Shown here: piece by piece, positions 44,553-51,068 of the stretch
How the letters are laid out: each line of letters opens with the position of its first letter
How positions within the stretch are numbered: position 1 is the stretch's first letter
DNA from: Bacteroidales bacterium
GTDB lineage: Bacteria; Bacteroidota; Bacteroidia; Bacteroidales; ML635J-15
Length of the DNA stretch: 64,000 bases
Direction: 5' to 3'
NCBI GenBank assembly: GCA_003249955.1
Contig: QKHS01000041.1
Span: 124,001-188,000 of the forward strand
The notes under the pieces: model-generated
The model's database searches: none
What the model saw: only the letters and a program-made list of their open reading frames with translations
Told to the model about the DNA's origin: nothing
Made by a program: the position numbers and the translations under genes

Positions 44553-44936
44553 TTAAATACCGTGGTTTATTCTTATTGGCCTGTTGTTGTCGTCAACTGC
44601 TGCAAAATAAAAAACTGCTTCAATTGCTTTTTCTCTTTTACCGGAATACATATCCTCTGAAAATACTTCTACTTTTATACCTGTTTTTAATTGTGAGACA
44701 TTGCAGATATTTCCCGTTATTTCGACAATCTCTCCGGATTTTACAGGTTTTATAAATTTAAAGTTATCTGTAGAAACTGTAACGATTTTATGCCTTAAAA
44801 ACCGCAGGGCCGTAATGTACGCAACTTCATCCATCCATTGCATTGCAATTCCTCCGAATAAAGTATCATGATCGTTCAGAGTTCCGGGAAATATAGCCCG
44901 GTATTGTTTCGTTTCAAAATCTTTTAATTCGTTCAT
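44553..44936 (-). CDS. Acyl-CoA thioesterase, hotdog fold (YciA-like)
   Basis: A 127-residue hotdog-fold protein with the acyl-CoA hydrolase pattern: FPGTLNDHDTLFGGIAMQWMDEVAYITALRFLRHKIVTVSTDNFKF. The N-D-H and the GG-x-Q-W-M-D region include the usual catalytic Asp. It probably hydrolyses acyl-CoA. It is divergent from the DUF134 gene; its consensus promoter overlaps the first palindrome of that shared region. It ends 4 bp after the convergent lipoprotein gene. Confidence 0.9.
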   Translation of the reverse strand: MNELKDFETKQYRAIFPGTLNDHDTLFGGIAMQWMDEVAYITALRFLRHKIVTVSTDNFKFIKPVKSGEIVEITGNICNVSQLKTGIKVEVFSEDMYSGKREKAIEAVFYFAAVDDNNRPIRINHGI

Positions 44937-44948
44937 ATATTTTTTTTA

Positions 44949-45012
44949 CAAAAGTAAAATTAATTTGCGAAATGAACAAATGTTCATTATCTTTGTAGTG
45001 AACAAATGTTTA
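44949..45012. promoter_or_regulatory. Divergent consensus promoters with twin TGAACA-AA-TGTTCA operators
   Basis: Plus strand: TTTG at 44964-44967 and TATCTTTG at 44988-44995, 20-bp spacer, for the DUF134 gene. Minus strand: TTTG (44977-44980) and TACTTTTG (44949-44956), 20-bp spacer, for the thioesterase. Palindrome 1, atgaaca-aa-tgttcat (44972-44987), lies in the plus spacer and over the minus -33 box. Palindrome 2, tgaaca-aa-tgttta (44999-45012), lies over the plus start site. Centres are 26 bp apart. The half-site resembles ArsR/SmtB-type operators; DUF134 itself has a helix-turn-helix and is another candidate. Confidence 0.8.
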
Positions 45013-45018
45013 ATAAAA

Positions 45019-45594
45019 ATGTCTCCAAGAATTAAAAGAAACAGAAAAGTTTTAAATCTGCCTTTAATAAAAGGATTTAAGCCTTATGGTCCTGAATCGG
45101 GGAGTGATAAAAAGGAGCCTGTTATATTACTTTACGAAGAATATGAAGCATTGAGATTGTGTGATTATGATATGTGTAATCATCTTGAGGCTTCGGCAAT
45201 AATGAATATTTCAAGGCCGACATATACGCGTATATATGCTGCTGTAAGGCAAAAGATTGCAAAAGCTTTTGTTGAAGGCAGACAGATTGTTATTGAAGGA
45301 GGTAAGGTTTATTTTGATAGTGATTGGTATCATTGTGAGTCTTGTGGTTGTTATGCCAACAACCCGGATAAAGAAAAATCACTTGGTAATTGTCCGTTAT
45401 GCGGAAGTTTGAATATTCATGAGTACGATTATGACAATGAAAATAATTTAACTGATGCCGAAGAGAGTTGTGACAATGTTTGTATTTGTCCGGAGTGTGG
45501 CTACGAGCAGGAACATCTCAGGGCAAGACCATGCAACTCAGATATTTGTCCTGAGTGCAATACTCCGATGGTGCGAAAAAATAATAATAAATAA
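45019..45594 (+). CDS. DUF134 family HTH protein with zinc-ribbon-like cysteines
   Basis: The ATG at 45019 (MSPRIKRNRKVLNLP) gives 191 residues; the start at 44965 lies upstream of the promoter and can be excluded. The DUF134 part (about 1-95) has VILLYEEYEALRLCDYD and a sigma-r4-like helix-turn-helix HLEASAIMNISRPTYTRIYAAVRQKIA. The C-terminal half holds several CxxC pairs (ESCGCY, NCPLCGS, CICPECGY, CPECN), so one or two zinc ribbons or Fe-S sites are likely. DUF134 proteins lie beside NifX-like genes in anaerobes and are thought to regulate them. First gene of the cluster. Confidence 0.9.
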   Translation: MSPRIKRNRKVLNLPLIKGFKPYGPESGSDKKEPVILLYEEYEALRLCDYDMCNHLEASAIMNISRPTYTRIYAAVRQKIAKAFVEGRQIVIEGGKVYFDSDWYHCESCGCYANNPDKEKSLGNCPLCGSLNIHEYDYDNENNLTDAEESCDNVCICPECGYEQEHLRARPCNSDICPECNTPMVRKNNNK

Positions 45595-45605
45595 ACAGTA
45601 ATAAT

Positions 45606-45923
45606 ATGAAAGTTGCAATTACATCAACAGGGAACAGCCTGGAGTCAAAGATTGATAAACGGTTCGGACGTTGTTCATTTTTTGTTATTTATGATACAGA
45701 AACAAAGTCTGTCGAGTTTATTCCCAATCCTAACAAAGATGCTGAAGAAGGAGCGGGGCCTGCATCTGTACAATTAGTGGCAACACGAAAAGCGGATAAA
45801 ATAGTATCAGGAGAGTTTGGACTGAAGATCAAGCCTTTGCTTGACAGTTTAAAAATTCAGATGATAGTTTTAAAAGAACCTGAACGTACTGTTTCTGACA
45901 TAATTGATTACTTAAATCATTAA
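45606..45923 (+). CDS. NifX/NifB-C-like cluster-binding protein 1
   Basis: A 105-residue RNase H-like dinitrogenase iron-molybdenum-cofactor family domain: MKVAITSTGNSLESKIDKRFGRCSFFVIYD, PNPNKDAEEGAGPASVQLVA, ADKIVSGEFGLKIKPLLDS. Members carry metal-sulfur clusters, such as the Mo-Cu cluster of the orange protein ORP. No nitrogenase genes are present, so a nitrogen-fixation role is not implied. It follows the DUF134 gene by 11 bp. Confidence 0.92.
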   Translation: MKVAITSTGNSLESKIDKRFGRCSFFVIYDTETKSVEFIPNPNKDAEEGAGPASVQLVATRKADKIVSGEFGLKIKPLLDSLKIQMIVLKEPERTVSDIIDYLNH

Positions 45924-45941
45924 CTATAAAAAACTAATGAC

Positions 45942-46262
45942 ATGAAAATCGCGGTTCCTACTATCGGAGGTGTTCTTGATGAATACTTTGAGTCATGTGA
46001 GGTGTTTACAATCTTCACAACAGACGATTCTTTCAATATTACAGAATCAGAGCTCTTATATACGCCTCAGGGCTGCGATTGTAAAAATAATGTACCATTA
46101 ATTATGCAGCAAAAGGGGGTTAAGTTTATGCTTGCTTTTGTAATGCCGGCACATGCAGACGGTACATGTGCAAAATATGGAATAGAAGTAGTTACTGGTT
46201 TTTCCGGGAATGTGCAGGATGTTGCAGAAAGATTTCTGAGTAGTAAAAAAACTAAATTATAA
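45942..46262 (+). CDS. NifX-like cluster-binding protein 2
   Basis: A 106-residue member of the same family: MKIAVPTIGGVLDEYFESCEVFTIF, QGCDCKNNVPLIMQQKGVKFMLAF, ADGTCAKYGIEVVTGFSG. It has four cysteines (SCEV, GCDC, GTCA) against one in copy 1, so metal binding through thiolates is more plausible here. The usual HFG near residue 15 is replaced by YFE, a divergence from the other two copies. Confidence 0.88.
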   Translation: MKIAVPTIGGVLDEYFESCEVFTIFTTDDSFNITESELLYTPQGCDCKNNVPLIMQQKGVKFMLAFVMPAHADGTCAKYGIEVVTGFSGNVQDVAERFLSSKKTKL

Positions 46263-46283
46263 CAATTAAACAATAATACAAAA

Positions 46284-46487
46284 ATGCCGGGATTAAATCA
46301 ACAAGGCCCGTCAGGACAAGGTCCTGGTACCGGGCAAAAAAAAGGAAGGTGTGCAGGTTTCGGGTTAAATAAAAAAAACAGAACAACTACACCGGATGAT
46401 GTCAGGAGTGAAACATTTTGCTCAGGACAAAACAGAGTCGGTCGTGGTCAGCGACTACAAAAACGCTTAAGAGGTTGTATGCAGTAA
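46284..46487 (+). CDS. DUF5320-like small Gly/Cys protein
   Basis: A 67-residue basic protein starting MPGLNQQGPSGQGPGTGQKKGRCAGF. The PG-x-GP-x-G-x-GP-x-TG pattern is that of DUF5320-like proteins that accompany NifX-type genes in anaerobes. Three cysteines (GRCAG, TFCSG, RGCMQ) could bind metal. Function unknown. The gene lies 21 bp after NifX-like 2. Confidence 0.8.
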   Translation: MPGLNQQGPSGQGPGTGQKKGRCAGFGLNKKNRTTTPDDVRSETFCSGQNRVGRGQRLQKRLRGCMQ

Positions 46488-46542
46488 AAGTATCATTTAA
46501 TATATGATACCTGCCAGGTAAAACAGAATAAAAAACATAAAT

Positions 46543-46908
46543 ATGAATAAAATAATTGCGATTCCGATGGAAAACGGAATGCTTTGTGAACACTTCGGAC
46601 ATTGTCAGACATTTGCAATAGTCAAAGTGGAAAACAATAATATTGTAGAAATTAATGAGTTAATGCCGCCTGAACATGTGCCGGGATTATATCCGCGATG
46701 GGTTGCACAATTCGGGGTTACTGACGTAATTGCAGGCGGAATGGGGCAAAAGGCTGTAGAATTGTTTAACCAACAAAATATTAATGCTTTTGTGGGCGCT
46801 CCGGTTAAAAATGCAAAGGATTTGGTAACCGATTTTATAAATGATAAACTTAATCTTTCTGCAAACTATTGTAATCATGATCATGAACACGGGAACTGCG
46901 GGCATTAA
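46543..46908 (+). CDS. NifX-like cluster-binding protein 3 with His/Cys-rich tail
   Basis: A 121-residue member: MNKIIAIPMENGMLCEHFGHCQTFAIVKV, VAQFGVTDVIAGGMGQKAVELFNQQNINAFVGA. Closest of the three to the MTH1175/ORP type. The tail YCNHDHEHGNCGH adds five His and two Cys, a likely metal-binding site. Its 3' end overlaps the next gene if that uses the ATG at 46883. Confidence 0.92.
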   Translation: MNKIIAIPMENGMLCEHFGHCQTFAIVKVENNNIVEINELMPPEHVPGLYPRWVAQFGVTDVIAGGMGQKAVELFNQQNINAFVGAPVKNAKDLVTDFINDKLNLSANYCNHDHEHGNCGH

Positions 46909-47773
46909 AAAGCAAGTTGTGGGGGTAGGATGCAGGAGTTGTTTTTTACGTTTTTATCAAAGACTTTTTACTAAATTTAATACTTCTGAACAGATTCAGA
47001 AAGAGTTTCTGGAATATTTTGACATAGTAACAACAACGCTTGCTTTTGAATCTGCTCCAGAGGTTCAGCGCGATCTTAGCATGAAGTTTTGTAAACTAAC
47101 GGGCATCGAAGATCTTTTTGTTGAAGAGAAACACATGTCAAATCTTAAGGCAACAGAGATTTATAATAAATGGAAGCCAATAATTTCTGAGTATGATGAT
47201 GTGTTTAAAGCAACATTGCGGCTTGCAATTGCCGGTAACATTATGGACTATGGTGCAGGTGATTATTTTGATATTGAATCTGTTATAACAGAAGTTTTTC
47301 ATGCTGAATTTGCGATAGATTATTCTCGTCTGCTTAAAGAAAAGATAAAATCATCTGAAAAAATATTATATCTTGGAGATAATGCCGGTGAAATAGTGTT
47401 TGATAAATTGTTTATTGAAACAAATTTGCAGGACAAAGTCGTTTATGTAGTTAAAGGCGGGCCTGTTTTGAATGATGTTACCATGGCTGATGCCGAAGCT
47501 GTAAACATGGAATCTGTTGCAAAAGTAATCACTAACGGATATAATGCTCCTTCAACCGTATTAAGCATGTGCAGTCCTGATTTTATGCATCATTTTAATT
47601 CAGCAGATTTGATAATTTCAAAAGGACAGGGCAATTTTGAAGGATTATGGAGTGAAAACGACAGCAGGGTTTTCTTTTTACTTATGACAAAATGTGACAC
47701 AGTTTCGGACATTCTTGGCGTAAACAAAGGAAGTTTTGTTGTTATTAACGGAGGACACAGGTTTGAAAAATAA
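46883..47773 (+). CDS. DUF89 / ARMT1-like domain protein
   Basis: With the ATG at 46883 the protein has 296 residues and overlaps NifX-like 3 by 26 bp; a GTG at 46919 just after that stop would place the conserved CRSCFLRFYQRL closer to the N-terminus, as in other bacterial DUF89 proteins. Later blocks include the metal/phosphate-site motifs ILYLGDNAGEIVFDKLF, VVKGGPVLNDVTMADAEA and ADLIISKGQGNFEGL. The family includes metal-dependent phosphatases (damage-control enzymes). Why it sits in a metal-cluster locus is unclear. Confidence 0.88.
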   Translation: MNTGTAGIKKQVVGVGCRSCFLRFYQRLFTKFNTSEQIQKEFLEYFDIVTTTLAFESAPEVQRDLSMKFCKLTGIEDLFVEEKHMSNLKATEIYNKWKPIISEYDDVFKATLRLAIAGNIMDYGAGDYFDIESVITEVFHAEFAIDYSRLLKEKIKSSEKILYLGDNAGEIVFDKLFIETNLQDKVVYVVKGGPVLNDVTMADAEAVNMESVAKVITNGYNAPSTVLSMCSPDFMHHFNSADLIISKGQGNFEGLWSENDSRVFFLLMTKCDTVSDILGVNKGSFVVINGGHRFEK

Positions 47774-48650
47774 AAATATAAAAATAGCTGTTGCCAGCGG
47801 TAAAGGCGGAACAGGGAAAACATTGATTTCTACTAACTTGTTTTATGTACTGCAGCAATCAGGTCTCAATGTTAAGTTAATTGATTGTGATGCAGAAGAA
47901 CCAAATGCAATGGCTTTTTTTTCGGGGAATTGTGAAAAACAGACAGATGTAACACAAAAGGTTCCGGTTATTGACGAAAGCAAGTGTACATATTGCAGTA
48001 AGTGCCATGATTATTGCTCCTACAATGCAATATTTATTTTACCTCCGGCAAAAATTATAAAAGTGATAGAAGAGTTGTGTCATGATTGTGGCGCTTGTTC
48101 TGTTGCCTGCGGGTTTAATGCTATAAGCGAAAAAGATGTTTCAGTCGGTACAGTCAGCAGCTATTCCATGTCAGAAAAAACATCGGTTATTGAAGCCAGG
48201 ATGAAAGTGGGTGTTTTTTCTCCTGTTAATGTAATTAAGGCTGCAATAAAAGAAGCCGGAAATGATGGTGTTATAATTCTTGATTCTCCGCCCGGAACCT
48301 CGTGTCCTTTCATTCAGACAGTTACACATGCCGATTTTGTTATCCTGGTTACAGAGCCGACTCCTTTTGGGTTAAGCGATTTAAAGCAATCTGTCGAAAC
48401 TCTTGAAACAATGGATAAACATTATGGTGTTATAGTAAACCGGTCTGGCATGGGAGACAGTCAGATTTACAATTATCTGGAGCAGAAGAAAATCCCGCTT
48501 TTAGCTGAAATACCTTTTGATAAAGAAATTGCCCTGAGATACTCAGGAGCAGAATTAATTACAAGAACAGATCCGGAGTGGCAACCGATGTTTACAGCAC
48601 TGTTTGATTTAATAATTGAAGAATATGGAAATAGCGGTAATAAGCGGTAA
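47763..48650 (+). CDS. ParA/MinD-type ATPase with inserted ferredoxin domain 1
   Basis: No ATG exists upstream of the P-loop; TTG at 47763, overlapping the DUF89 stop by 11 bp, is the likely start (295 residues). Deviant Walker A VASGKGGTGKTLIS, then a two-cluster 4Fe-4S insert with eight cysteines (CTYCSKCHDYC and CHDCGACSVAC), then IILDSPPGTSCPF and LVTEPTPFGLSDL of the Mrp/MinD fold. Such ATPase pairs occur beside ORP/NifX genes and are thought to assemble or insert metal-sulfur clusters. The following homologue overlaps by 26 bp. Confidence 0.9.
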   Translation: MKNKNIKIAVASGKGGTGKTLISTNLFYVLQQSGLNVKLIDCDAEEPNAMAFFSGNCEKQTDVTQKVPVIDESKCTYCSKCHDYCSYNAIFILPPAKIIKVIEELCHDCGACSVACGFNAISEKDVSVGTVSSYSMSEKTSVIEARMKVGVFSPVNVIKAAIKEAGNDGVIILDSPPGTSCPFIQTVTHADFVILVTEPTPFGLSDLKQSVETLETMDKHYGVIVNRSGMGDSQIYNYLEQKKIPLLAEIPFDKEIALRYSGAELITRTDPEWQPMFTALFDLIIEEYGNSGNKR

Positions 48651-49488
48651 AGGCGGCACGGGGAAAAGTAGTGTAAGCTCTGCTTTTGCAACATTATCAG
48701 AAATAATTGTATTGGCAGATTGCGATGTAGATGCAGCGAATTTATACCTTATTTTTAATCCTGAAAATGAGGAAGAGCAGGTTTATGCAGGAGGACAGAA
48801 AGCTGTTATTGACTATTCGCTGTGTGATAATTGCAGAGTTTGTCAGGATTATTGCAGATTCGATGCTATTTCTGTTGTAAATGGGAAAACAGTAATATCA
48901 GGAATTTTGTGTGACGGCTGTAAATTATGTTCACGCATTTGCCCCGAAAATGCTATTAAAATGATTGTTGAGAACAAGAGCAGAATGTTTTCCGGTAGTT
49001 TCAGAAATGGCAAAATGGTTTACGGGCGTTTAGCTCCCGGCGAAGAGAATTCCGGGAAACTGGTAAATCTGGTAAGGGAAAAGGCAAAGCAGATATCTCT
49101 TAAAAATGGACTGAATACAATAATTATTGACGGGCCTCCGGGTATAGGATGTCCGGTAATATCTTCGGTTACAGGCGTTGATAAAGTAGTTATTGTTACA
49201 GAACCAACAATTTCGGGACTTAATGATTTGAAAAGAGTACTTGAAATTACTTCAAAATTTAGTCTGAATACCTGGGTAATAATAAATAAATTCAACCTTA
49301 ACCCGGATATGTCAAACCGTATAGAATCATATTGTAACAACTGCGACATTAAAATAGCCGGGAAATTACCATTTGAGCCAAAAGTTGTAGAAGCTATGAT
49401 TAATTGTAAGAGTATAACGGAATGGGCTCCTGAATCTCATTTTACGAAGGAAATAATTTCAGCATATAAAATTATTACAAATGAATAA
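48625..49488 (+). CDS. ParA/MinD-type ATPase with inserted ferredoxin domain 2
   Basis: The ATG at 48625 gives 287 residues. Walker A VISGKGGTGKSSVS is followed by eight cysteines in CDNCRVCQDYC and CDGCKLCSRIC (two 4Fe-4S clusters), then IIIDGPPGIGCPVISS and VTEPTISGLNDLKR. It is a diverged paralogue of the preceding gene; the two probably form a heterodimer. The 26-bp overlap upstream and 8-bp overlap downstream show strong translational coupling. Confidence 0.92.
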   Translation: MEIAVISGKGGTGKSSVSSAFATLSEIIVLADCDVDAANLYLIFNPENEEEQVYAGGQKAVIDYSLCDNCRVCQDYCRFDAISVVNGKTVISGILCDGCKLCSRICPENAIKMIVENKSRMFSGSFRNGKMVYGRLAPGEENSGKLVNLVREKAKQISLKNGLNTIIIDGPPGIGCPVISSVTGVDKVVIVTEPTISGLNDLKRVLEITSKFSLNTWVIINKFNLNPDMSNRIESYCNNCDIKIAGKLPFEPKVVEAMINCKSITEWAPESHFTKEIISAYKIITNE

Positions 49489-49753
49489 AGTTATGTCAGG
49501 TAAAGTACCTGTAATAAATCCAGACAGATGTATAAAATGTTCGAAATGTGTCAGTATCTGTCATGCGCAGGCAATTATAAACGAGCGTAGTCTTAGTTGT
49601 TCAAGATGCATAAAATATTGTATTGCAATGGAAGTTCCGTGTAATACGGATAATTATGTTTTCGATTATAAAAAATGTGATTCATGTGGCTTATGCGTTT
49701 TGGAGTGCGACCAGAATGCAATTTCAATGACAGACCATTTTGAAAAAGTGTAA
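49481..49753 (+). CDS. Small polyferredoxin
   Basis: A 90-residue protein with three cysteine groups: CIKCSKCVSIC (about 17-27), CSRCIKYC (about 40-47) and CDSCGLCVLEC (about 66-76). Two complete 4Fe-4S clusters are likely from the outer groups; the middle group has three closely spaced cysteines. It overlaps the ATPase gene by 8 bp and probably transfers electrons to or from the Fe-S ATPases. Confidence 0.88.
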   Translation: MNKVMSGKVPVINPDRCIKCSKCVSICHAQAIINERSLSCSRCIKYCIAMEVPCNTDNYVFDYKKCDSCGLCVLECDQNAISMTDHFEKV

Positions 49754-49875
49754 AATAAAAAGGAATTCTATTGTTAATTACTTTATAAAACCGGATAAAT
49801 AAGGCGTGGTATAAAACGAAAAAATAGTAAACAGAGACTTAAAATATATTTAAAAACAATTTAAAAATTAAAAAA

Positions 49876-50280
49876 ATGAAATCAAATTCTCTTTGGACAA
49901 GAAAATTTCAATCCGTTGTAGATAACGGAAGAAATCACAGTATGGTAATTGATTTGCCTGAGGCAAAAGGCGGAATTAACAGTGGCCCTACAGCATTGGA
50001 ATTATGCGTTATGAGCTTTAGCGGTTGCGTGGGGACAATTTTTGCAATGGTTGCAGAAAAGATGCGTTTAAGTTTTGATAAAATGGAAGTGGAAGTAAAT
50101 GCAGAGCAGAAAAATAATGCACCTACAATTTCCGATATTCATTTTGTGCTTTCAATCAGAACAGAGGAAGAAAAAAATAAAATAGAAAAATGTCTTGATC
50201 ATACGCTTAACACATGTCCGGTGGGAGTTCTTTTTAAACAGGCAGGTGTTGTAGTAACAAGTGAAATTAAATTTCTGTAA
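49876..50280 (+). CDS. OsmC family protein
   Basis: A 134-residue OsmC/Ohr-fold protein: GPTALELCVMSFSGCVGTIFAMVAEKMRL and LDHTLNTCPVGVLFKQAG. The two conserved cysteines (SGC about 56, TCP about 117) are the thiol pair that reduces organic peroxides in OsmC/Ohr. It is 122 bp after the polyferredoxin and 2 bp before mrp. The gap contains no obvious promoter or terminator, so it may be read with the cluster. Confidence 0.88.
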   Translation: MKSNSLWTRKFQSVVDNGRNHSMVIDLPEAKGGINSGPTALELCVMSFSGCVGTIFAMVAEKMRLSFDKMEVEVNAEQKNNAPTISDIHFVLSIRTEEEKNKIEKCLDHTLNTCPVGVLFKQAGVVVTSEIKFL

Positions 50281-50282
50281 TT

Positions 50283-51068
50283 ATGACTGCATTTGAAAAA
50301 ATCTCTTTTCCCGGAGTTAAGAAAGTTATTGTTGTGGCATCTGGAAAGGGAGGAGTCGGAAAATCAACAGTATCTGTAAATTTATCTGTAGCGTTGGCAA
50401 GACAGGGGCACAAAGTTGCTTTGGTGGATGCGGACATTTATGGACCATCAATACCGAAGATGCTTGGAATAGATAATGAAAGGCCGTTAGTTTCCACGTC
50501 CGGCGAAAAGGAAATAATGCTTCCTGTCGAAAAATTCGGTGTTAAGATAATGTCAATAGGTTTTTTTGTTACCAAAAGCCAGGGATTAATCTGGAGAGGG
50601 CCGATGGCAGCAAATGCCATGACTCAGCTTTTTGAAAATACTCAATGGGGCGATATAGATTATATGATTGTTGACTTTCCTCCGGGAACCGGAGATATAC
50701 AACTTACAACAATACAGAAAATCAATCTGGCGGGAGTAATTCTGGTAACAACACCTCAGGAGATAGCGTTGAATGATGCAAGAAAAGCGGCATCAATGTT
50801 TCTTAATCCCGATCTGAATGTCCCTCTTCTTGGTGTTATTGAAAATATGTCATGGTTTACACCTAAACAACATCCTGACGAGAAATATTATATCTTCGGA
50901 AAGGATGGAGGAGCAGTTCTTGCAAAGGAATTGAACACAAAACTGCTGGGTCAGATACCTTTGGTTGCAGAAGTAGGAGAACTTGCCGAGAAAGGGCATA
51001 GCGTCTTTGGTCAGACAGATCAGGCTGTTATTAAAGCATTCGAAAAAATTGCCGAAGATAATATGTAG
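50283..51068 (+). CDS. Mrp/ApbC/NBP35 family Fe-S carrier ATPase
   Basis: A 261-residue Mrp ATPase: Walker A VASGKGGVGKSTVS, DADIYGPSIPKMLG, IWRGPMAANAMTQLF, MIVDFPPGTGDIQLTT, LVTTPQEIALNDARKA and GVIENMSWF. The usual CxxC that follows ENMS in ApbC is absent (ENMSWFTPKQHPDEKYYIFG), as I recall for Bacteroidota homologues. It lacks the N-terminal DUF59 domain of housekeeping Mrp, which fits a cluster-specific paralogue like MrpORP. Confidence 0.92.
   Translation: MTAFEKISFPGVKKVIVVASGKGGVGKSTVSVNLSVALARQGHKVALVDADIYGPSIPKMLGIDNERPLVSTSGEKEIMLPVEKFGVKIMSIGFFVTKSQGLIWRGPMAANAMTQLFENTQWGDIDYMIVDFPPGTGDIQLTTIQKINLAGVILVTTPQEIALNDARKAASMFLNPDLNVPLLGVIENMSWFTPKQHPDEKYYIFGKDGGAVLAKELNTKLLGQIPLVAEVGELAEKGHSVFGQTDQAVIKAFEKIAEDNM

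Follow-up and report, generated by a model that had tools for sequence, protein, structure and literature searches.

We analysed a 64,000-nt stretch of DNA (below, the window) from a Bacteroidales bacterium (assembly GCA_003249955.1, contig QKHS01000041.1, positions 124,001–188,000, forward strand; genome size 4.7 Mb), in which a gene for a DUF134 (UPF0251) protein is followed by genes for NifX-like proteins, ferredoxin-ParA ATPases and other candidate metal-sulfur proteins. The closest DUF134 relatives are Bacteroidales records. The new observation is a conserved tandem palindrome located at the operon promoter before DUF134. Judging by the sequence, DUF134 very likely autoregulates the operon, as a predicted autorepressor acting via this tandem operator, and it is reasonably probable that in Bacteroidales the autoregulated operon serves to hold metal-sulfide clusters and to deliver them, the clusters most likely being of the iron-sulfur (Fe-S) type.

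Tandem operator and the candidate regulator DUF134

The promoter, of the Bacteroidota type by its consensus, consists of TTTG (44964–44967) and, after 20 nt, TATCTTTG (44988–44995, plus strand). Its -7 box is flanked by two copies of the palindrome TGANCANNTGNTCA situated 26 bp apart: copy 1, TGAACAAATGTTCA (44973–44986), lies inside the promoter spacer between the -33 and -7 boxes, and copy 2, TGAACAAATGTTTA (44999–45012), directly past the -7 box, near the expected transcription start. With the promoter and the operator included, the feature starts at 44964, not at 45019. The palindrome alone is unremarkable, having three matches at one mismatch in 64 kb versus 2.9 expected; what is notable about it is its position and conservation, not mere occurrence.

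Conservation was assessed in 41 genomes of relatives, own genome included (19 stretches were read for gene order), and in 80 related loci, the best of 577 DUF134 loci obtained by scanning the genomes of named species. Exact matches to the operator plus promoter number 13 in the 41 genomes; 12 lie at DUF134 genes, and the reversed control pattern has no match. When the tandem TGANCANNTGNTCA was scored over whole loci, the top match (tied in eight loci) was upstream of DUF134 in 75 of 80, and 69 of these 75 matches had a spacing of exactly 26 bp. The five exceptions are L076, where the gene is at the contig end; L131, whose site stands in front of a NifX2-like gene located ahead of DUF134; L117 and L134, with one copy only; and L065, with one imperfect right-hand copy. 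Upstream scores of at least 16 out of 20 were observed for 62 of the 80 loci versus one of 1600 mononucleotide shuffles. The -7 box between the operators, TAnnTTTG, is kept in the 69 aligned sites, though it was not used in picking them.

The motif was picked by eye on the relatives and on a first listing of the same 80 loci; second DUF134 copies and plasmid copies are less dependent tests of the operator. In loci with two copies, a site was present at both DUF134 genes in five of the six scorable cases (L068, L069, L109, L110, L114; one copy in L121 was left unscored). Two DUF134 copies from gut plasmids (Parabacteroides and Phocaeicola records) carry single palindromes matching in 10 of 10 positions, 44–45 bp before the start. 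These are DUF134-NifX fusion genes (L187, 6001–6816; L188, 6001–6813) with one perfect palindrome upstream of each.

Several points weigh against this reading of the operator, some of them against its generality. At least four of the 80 loci (L106, L126, L132, L138) are records that had already served in defining the motif, and all 80, chosen as the best of 577, resemble the window. Many sites contain one good palindrome only, and in L127 the second DUF134 gene, which lies close to the end of a contig, lacks a site. One exact site (G034, C96:1586) stands before a DUF5320-like gene in a genome that is 91% complete and in which DUF134 was not detected. Among 247 genomes of the phylum, 65 of them with DUF134 over the cut-off, we found 12 looser operator-promoter sites, of which only that of the own genome is at a listed DUF134 place; the other 11 correspond to a chance-like level. 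The tandem operator is absent from all 29 DUF134 loci of family f34 that were read; L172 has just a single palindrome, at -118, matching in 9 of 10 positions. None of these loci has a NifX gene within its 3.3 kb. Family f34 appears to be a different DUF134 context. Most genomes sampled from this family carry one or two DUF134 genes (loci L151–L180 except L166). The thirtieth locus read in the phylum survey, L166 of family f32, has TGAACATAAGTTCA at -32. The exact site in G034 (near L050 and L062) adjoins Fur-like and peroxiredoxin-like genes.

The DUF134 protein itself (45019–45594, plus strand, 191 aa) comprises a DeoR-like helix-turn-helix (HTH), a Cys4 motif, found in all 80 DUF134 proteins, and a second Cys-rich motif. 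When a profile of 14 DUF134 proteins was compared with HTHs of solved structures (hmmsearch), the nearest one was that of Bacillus subtilis DeoR (7bhy, E 4e-4). DeoR is reported to make base contacts in TTGAACA, with R34 and R39 touching bases, and to form complexes solely with the full operator of 39 or 65 bp (PMC11229326). In DUF134, two arginines five residues apart, R66 and R71, in the motif SRPTxxR, are invariant in 56 sequences; as the spacing matches, we infer that they are the counterparts of DeoR R34 and R39. Like DeoR/SorC-family repressors, DUF134 combines an HTH containing SRPTxxR with a proposed bipartite operator of about 40 bp and a TTGAACA-type half-site; unlike them, it has a Cys4 domain, or NifX in the fusions, in place of the sugar-binding domain. 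Its C-terminal part is Cys rich, with no sugar phosphate effector domain in Pfam at E 0.001. The AlphaFold2 model has a confident HTH (block means 88–97 for residues 31–90), with a pTM of only 0.42; a Foldseek search with the model yielded no match at E 0.001 or better, DeoR being weak (E 0.15, 40 columns, rmsd 0.7) and sigma region 4 domains about equal to it.

Fusions of DUF134 and NifX in one protein were found by Pfam in L048, L183, L184, L186 and L188, and by phmmer in L187. In an unexpected setting, a conjugative plasmid of Citrobacter farmeri, the DUF134 and NifX genes overlap (L185, 4998–5745).

The conservation of the operator at DUF134 genes and the DeoR-like HTH, the DeoR family member being one that contacts TTGAACA, together lead us to propose DUF134 as the autorepressor. 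Alternatively, another regulator, for example one of the TetR family, could bind the palindromes, with DUF134 merely heading the operon. TetR-family regulators commonly have palindromes of the TGAACA type, and both the exact site in G034 and the lack of sites at the majority of DUF134 genes in the wider sample of the phylum would agree with another regulator; given that 12 of 13 exact sites in relatives are at DUF134 operons, that paralogous DUF134 genes have sites of their own and plasmid copies retain theirs, and that the HTH resembles that of DeoR, we consider this unlikely.

A wider regulon was considered and dropped, as no second strong operator exists in the own genome, and the tandem with at most three mismatches occurs at seven places in the 41 genomes, five at DUF134 and only two, both weak, elsewhere (G000, C55:113050; G009, C298:12700). 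Outside the phylum, a palindrome resembling TTGRCANNTGYCAA, with no more than one mismatch, lies within 150 bp of five of six DUF134 genes from plasmid records, and the sixth has none; as this pattern was chosen after seeing the six genes and 0.9–1.8% of random stretches from those loci are equally good, these possible sites are a lead only.

The sigma-54 pattern TGGCACN5TTGCW with at most two mismatches yields 26 sites in the window versus 26 expected, none of them within 44900–45018, and no sigma-54 activator was noticed among the window open reading frames (ORFs), which were inspected by eye with no scan made. A divergent gene, thioesterase-like as named by eye (44553–44936), shares the intergenic region with DUF134, and the same arrangement is repeated in 11 of the 77 related loci with sufficient upstream sequence.

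Gene content and its conservation

The sequence-only reading had listed the genes at 45019–51068, and the list was correct: each is an ORF with a family match in Pfam or NCBIfam. All are on the plus strand. DUF134 (Pfam E-value 6.7e-21) is followed by NifX1 (45606–45923; Nitro_FeMo-Co domain of the ORP/MTH1175 type, with one conserved Cys), NifX2 (45942–46262; Nitro_FeMo-Co), DUF5320 (46284–46487; 67 aa, rich in Gly, Lys and Arg, net charge +10, conserved Cys23; 1.4e-6), NifX3 (46543–46908) and a DUF89/ARMT1-like phosphatase (46877–47773; 298 aa; 2.2e-54), the E-values of the three Nitro_FeMo-Co (NifX-like) matches being 2.4e-14, 1.8e-9 and 2.1e-16. Next come two ParA/CbiA ATPases with two 4Fe-4S motifs apiece, ParFd1 (47763–48650) and ParFd2 (48625–49488), a small Fer4 polyferredoxin (49481–49753), an OsmC family protein (49876–50280; 2.0e-17) and an Mrp-type ATPase (50283–51068), which matches the NCBIfam ApbC model with E 1.2e-81, yet under the model cut-off. 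ParFd1 has no ATG start; the TTG at 47763, overlapping DUF89, is likely.

DUF134 is over the cut-off in 17 of the 41 genomes, own included, and in 19 at E 0.001. The order in the better preserved of the 19 stretches is DUF134, NifX1, DUF5320, NifX3, DUF89, ParFd1, ParFd2, several having Mrp further on. This core recurs in order across dozens of Bacteroidales-type loci, often with Mrp, which excludes a chance grouping. In the 80 loci, counted on the same strand with flanks of at most 9 kb and many contigs short, we observed NifX1 (n = 79, each time as the next labelled gene after DUF134), NifX3 (n = 66), ParFd1 (n = 61), ParFd2 (n = 59), DUF5320 (n = 43; a small protein with the DUF5320 motif in 63 by a loose pattern), DUF89 (n = 36) and Mrp (n = 27). 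When only the 49 loci that extend 8 kb or more downstream are counted, the numbers are 49 for NifX1, 44 for NifX3, 43 for ParFd2, 42 for ParFd1, 28 for DUF5320, 23 for DUF89 (20 of them between NifX3 and ParFd1) and 16 for Mrp.

DUF89 and DUF5320 had been regarded as additions peculiar to this locus; the above frequencies, and their presence also in Clostridia, speak otherwise. OsmC, previously counted as a member, is incidental, being found in one of the 80 loci, on the opposite strand. The small polyferredoxin and NifX2 occur in four loci each; together with OsmC, they are local extras. Among the window proteins, NifX2 best matches the NifX portion of the DUF134-NifX fusions of Bacteroidota (L048, L187, L188). 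Cultured species that carry the operon include Bacteroides luti (L142) and Breznakibacter xylanolyticus (L140), both environmental isolates.

In many relatives ParFd2 is followed by a paralogue resembling NifX1, about 112 aa long and differing at its C-terminus (L067 at 15599, L071 at 14296, L136 at 13118, and others), which the window does not have. The own genome has a fourth NifX-type gene (G000 contig 29; L029, 8945–9316), isolated, far from DUF134, and flanked by secreted-peptidase-like and acyltransferase-like genes, the neighbours being named by eye. A Bacteroidales-type operon with the tandem operator is also found in L096, on a contig binned as Dehalococcoidia, probably due to a binning error.

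DUF134 was found in several bacterial phyla and in archaeal control genomes. An anaerobe-only distribution was considered and rejected. The own genome has no COX1, nor does any of 25 in the own genus, and in the phylum DUF134 is over the cut-off in 11 of 12 genomes without a COX1 match (eight of the 12 belong to family f34) versus 54 of 235 others; as DUF134 is also over the cut-off in three of seven relatives with COX1, this falls short of strict specificity for anaerobes. Among the papers listed, mostly open ones judged by title, none dealt with the function of DUF134 or with this cluster in Bacteroidota; in a whole-word search DUF134/UPF0251 was named in only 3 of 5.39 million papers, one of the mentions being in a mutation table.

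Relation to the ORP complex and the likely cargo

The kinship with the Desulfovibrio orange protein (ORP) complex was borne out. NifX1 matches the ORP structure 2wfb (presumably from D. gigas) with E 4.8e-8, as well as the MTH1175 structures, which indicates homology only. NifX3 (E 1.5e-32, positions 265–365) and Mrp (positions 4–247) jointly span the MrpORP model NF041136, each below the whole-model cut-off. NifX3 is a stand-alone counterpart of the C-terminal Di-Nase domain of MrpORP, having all three of its signatures, CxHFGHC, PPxHxPGxxP and C(N)H (CNH in the window); in 65 sequences including the window, H17, F18, G19, H20 and C21 are conserved in all 65, C110 in 64 and C15 in 45. These signatures are named in PMC6345978, where the Di-Nase domain of MrpORP is reported to bind [3Fe-4S]. 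ParFd1 and ParFd2, 33% identical to each other, have the Orp3/Orp4 architecture, and their eight ferredoxin-motif cysteines are invariant in 60 and 56 sequences, respectively, window included. Both also have an invariant Cys directly after the Walker B PPG (C180 and C176), a possible intersubunit cluster ligand.

The ORP complex is described as Orp3, 4, 5, 8 and 9 under a sigma-54 promoter (PMC6345978). It shares with the window two ATPases with paired 4Fe-4S motifs, an ORP-type NifX, and the Mrp and Di-Nase parts. The latter, fused in MrpORP (Orp9), are separate genes in the window; the window Mrp is without the usual CXXC, DUF5320 and DUF89 are included, and DUF134 with the tandem operator takes the place of sigma-54 control. 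Since fused MrpORP, CXXC and sigma-54 control are not found here, the locus appears to be an ORP-related system, not the ORP complex itself. The earlier assignment of its genes to ORP gene types stands for NifX1, the ATPases, and NifX3 together with Mrp; DUF134 is not among the members of the complex given in PMC6345978.

As to the cargo, a Mo-Cu cluster like that of the Desulfovibrio complex is not supported: nothing at the locus indicates Mo or Cu, and several partners indicate iron and sulfur. Unlabelled genes in or just after the 80 blocks were grouped by single-linkage clustering, and one representative of some clusters was run through Pfam. Recurrent partners are a CGGC domain protein (28 loci), a CobO-type protein (21), radical SAM (19), a Cys/Met PLP enzyme (14), 1-Cys peroxiredoxin (9), Pyr_redox_2 (9), ZIP (6), ferritin (5) and DUF1847 (5). 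A NifU-like scaffold is present in three loci (L066, L067, L110), and in L067 NifU is fused to DUF5320, the gene order being DUF134, NifX1, DUF5320-like, DUF5320-NifU, ferritin, peroxiredoxin-like, NifX3, DUF89. In the annotation of Peptoclostridium acidaminophilum (Clostridia), DUF134 is near DUF5320, radical SAM, Fur, ARMT1-like, Mrp and peroxiredoxin genes.

Because of the NifU, ferritin and peroxiredoxin partners and the DUF5320-NifU fusion in some relatives, we prefer iron-sulfur over Mo-Cu, and Fe-S is the probable cargo. True ORP chemistry, that is, handling of a heterometal thiomolybdate (Mo-Cu-S) cluster or Mo/Cu detoxification in sulfidic settings with DUF134 sensing Mo or Cu, would be in line with the relation of NifX1 to 2wfb and with the S2MoS2CuS2MoS2 cluster that Orp8 homologues are reported to hold (PMC6345978). 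It is not likely, given that several iron or sulfur proteins (NifU, ferritin, peroxiredoxin, Cys/Met enzyme) figure among the recurrent partners, others being neutral (CobO-type, radical SAM, CGGC), that NifX3 matches the [3Fe-4S] domain of MrpORP, and that inspection of the partner clusters by eye, most of them left unscanned, brought up no Mo or Cu transporter.

Two observations fit Fe-S delivery less well. The DUF89, CobO-type, radical SAM, CGGC and thioesterase partners suggest no obvious Fe-S delivery step. Further, the window Mrp, which also has a deviant Walker A, GKGGVGKS (pattern GKGGhGK[ST]), contains no Cys at all and thus lacks the CXXC for a bridging cluster; of 24 Mrp proteins in relatives, 23 are readable at the usual CXXC place, after ENM, and in all 23 it is without Cys and reads FTPxxHPDEKYY-like. 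In seven of the 24 (L112, L114, L125, L127, L131, L140, L143) a CxxC follows some 45 residues further along, around residue 235, in the context QIPxxExxCxxCDxG, which may be a shifted cluster site.

Two more specific roles were considered. As claimed before, no nitrogenase is present: its component family PF00148 is absent from the own genome, and in the 41 genomes there was no match over the cut-off and one weak match, in G007. The system could be dedicated to maturation of one enzyme class, e.g., [FeFe]-hydrogenases, with six domain matches in the own genome and five or six in several DUF134-bearing congeners; the link is weak and this role quite unlikely, since many hydrogenase genomes lack DUF134 and four of the 17 DUF134 genomes (G001, G028, G035, G036) have no Fe_hyd_lg_C, a point softened by the 61% completeness of G035. 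The ATPases could also position the division site or the chromosome, as ParFd2 matches MinD structures and such a hypothesis has been stated for D. vulgaris (PMC4672049). This we regard as highly improbable: the recurrent partners looked at are metal-sulfur and redox genes, with no division genes, and DUF134 was not found in about half of the close relatives. No relative of the ParA ATPase was found in viral contigs.

Proposed mechanism and its meaning

Under the preferred reading, an autoregulated Fe-S operon, DUF134 dimers would bind both palindromes, perhaps as a dimer of dimers similarly to the SorC-family DeoR on its 39-bp operator, and bound DUF134 would occlude RNA polymerase. The Cys4 site, or NifX fused to or made beside DUF134, may read the state of the Fe-S pool, lifting the repression. 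NifX1 and NifX3 would carry anionic Fe-S units, stabilized by the cationic Gly-rich DUF5320 peptide, and the ferredoxin-ParA pair (with Mrp, where present) would deliver them by ATP-driven transfer. DUF89 presumably removes some phospho-metabolite. It matches the structure 2g8l with E 1.2e-39, has a CxxC near the N-terminus, and shares with the damage-control phosphatases (2g8l and 2ffj, which we take to be PH1575 and AF1104) the DUF89/ARMT1 family by sequence and the conserved DN/ND residues.

A further-reaching version, possible but doubtful, is a metal-sulfide store by analogy with IssA, the thioferrate storage protein of Pyrococcus furiosus: NifX1 and NifX3 would nucleate anionic iron sulfide, DUF5320, as a detached IssA tail, would condense it, the ATPases would load Fe-S proteins, and DUF134 would represent a new class of metal-sulfide-sensing repressors gauging the store via Cys4 or NifX. 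The IssA tail is described as cationic and Gly-rich with a single Cys (PMC5524996). DUF5320 has a median net charge of +9 (range -1 to +13, n = 42) and one Cys kept in 42 of 42 sequences, and the two systems have in common a NifX-type domain and a cationic, Gly-rich peptide bearing a single conserved Cys. IssA has its tail and the NifX-type domain in one protein, whereas here the tail would be DUF5320, which is separate or, in L067, NifU-fused, and the likeness is of composition only; a filtered listing of 211 NifX-matching frames from 108 loci contained no NifX-type domain with a fused cationic Gly-rich tail. What looked like a cationic head on NifX3 in L077 proved to be an overlapping frame, not a fusion.

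The defined operator makes the role of DUF134 testable and opens a way to study possible sensing and buffering of Fe-S clusters by anaerobes, and the split MrpORP and the DUF5320-NifU fusion offer the ORP field new candidate partners. If the store version were true, IssA-like storage would be widespread in anaerobic bacteria, beyond Thermococcales.

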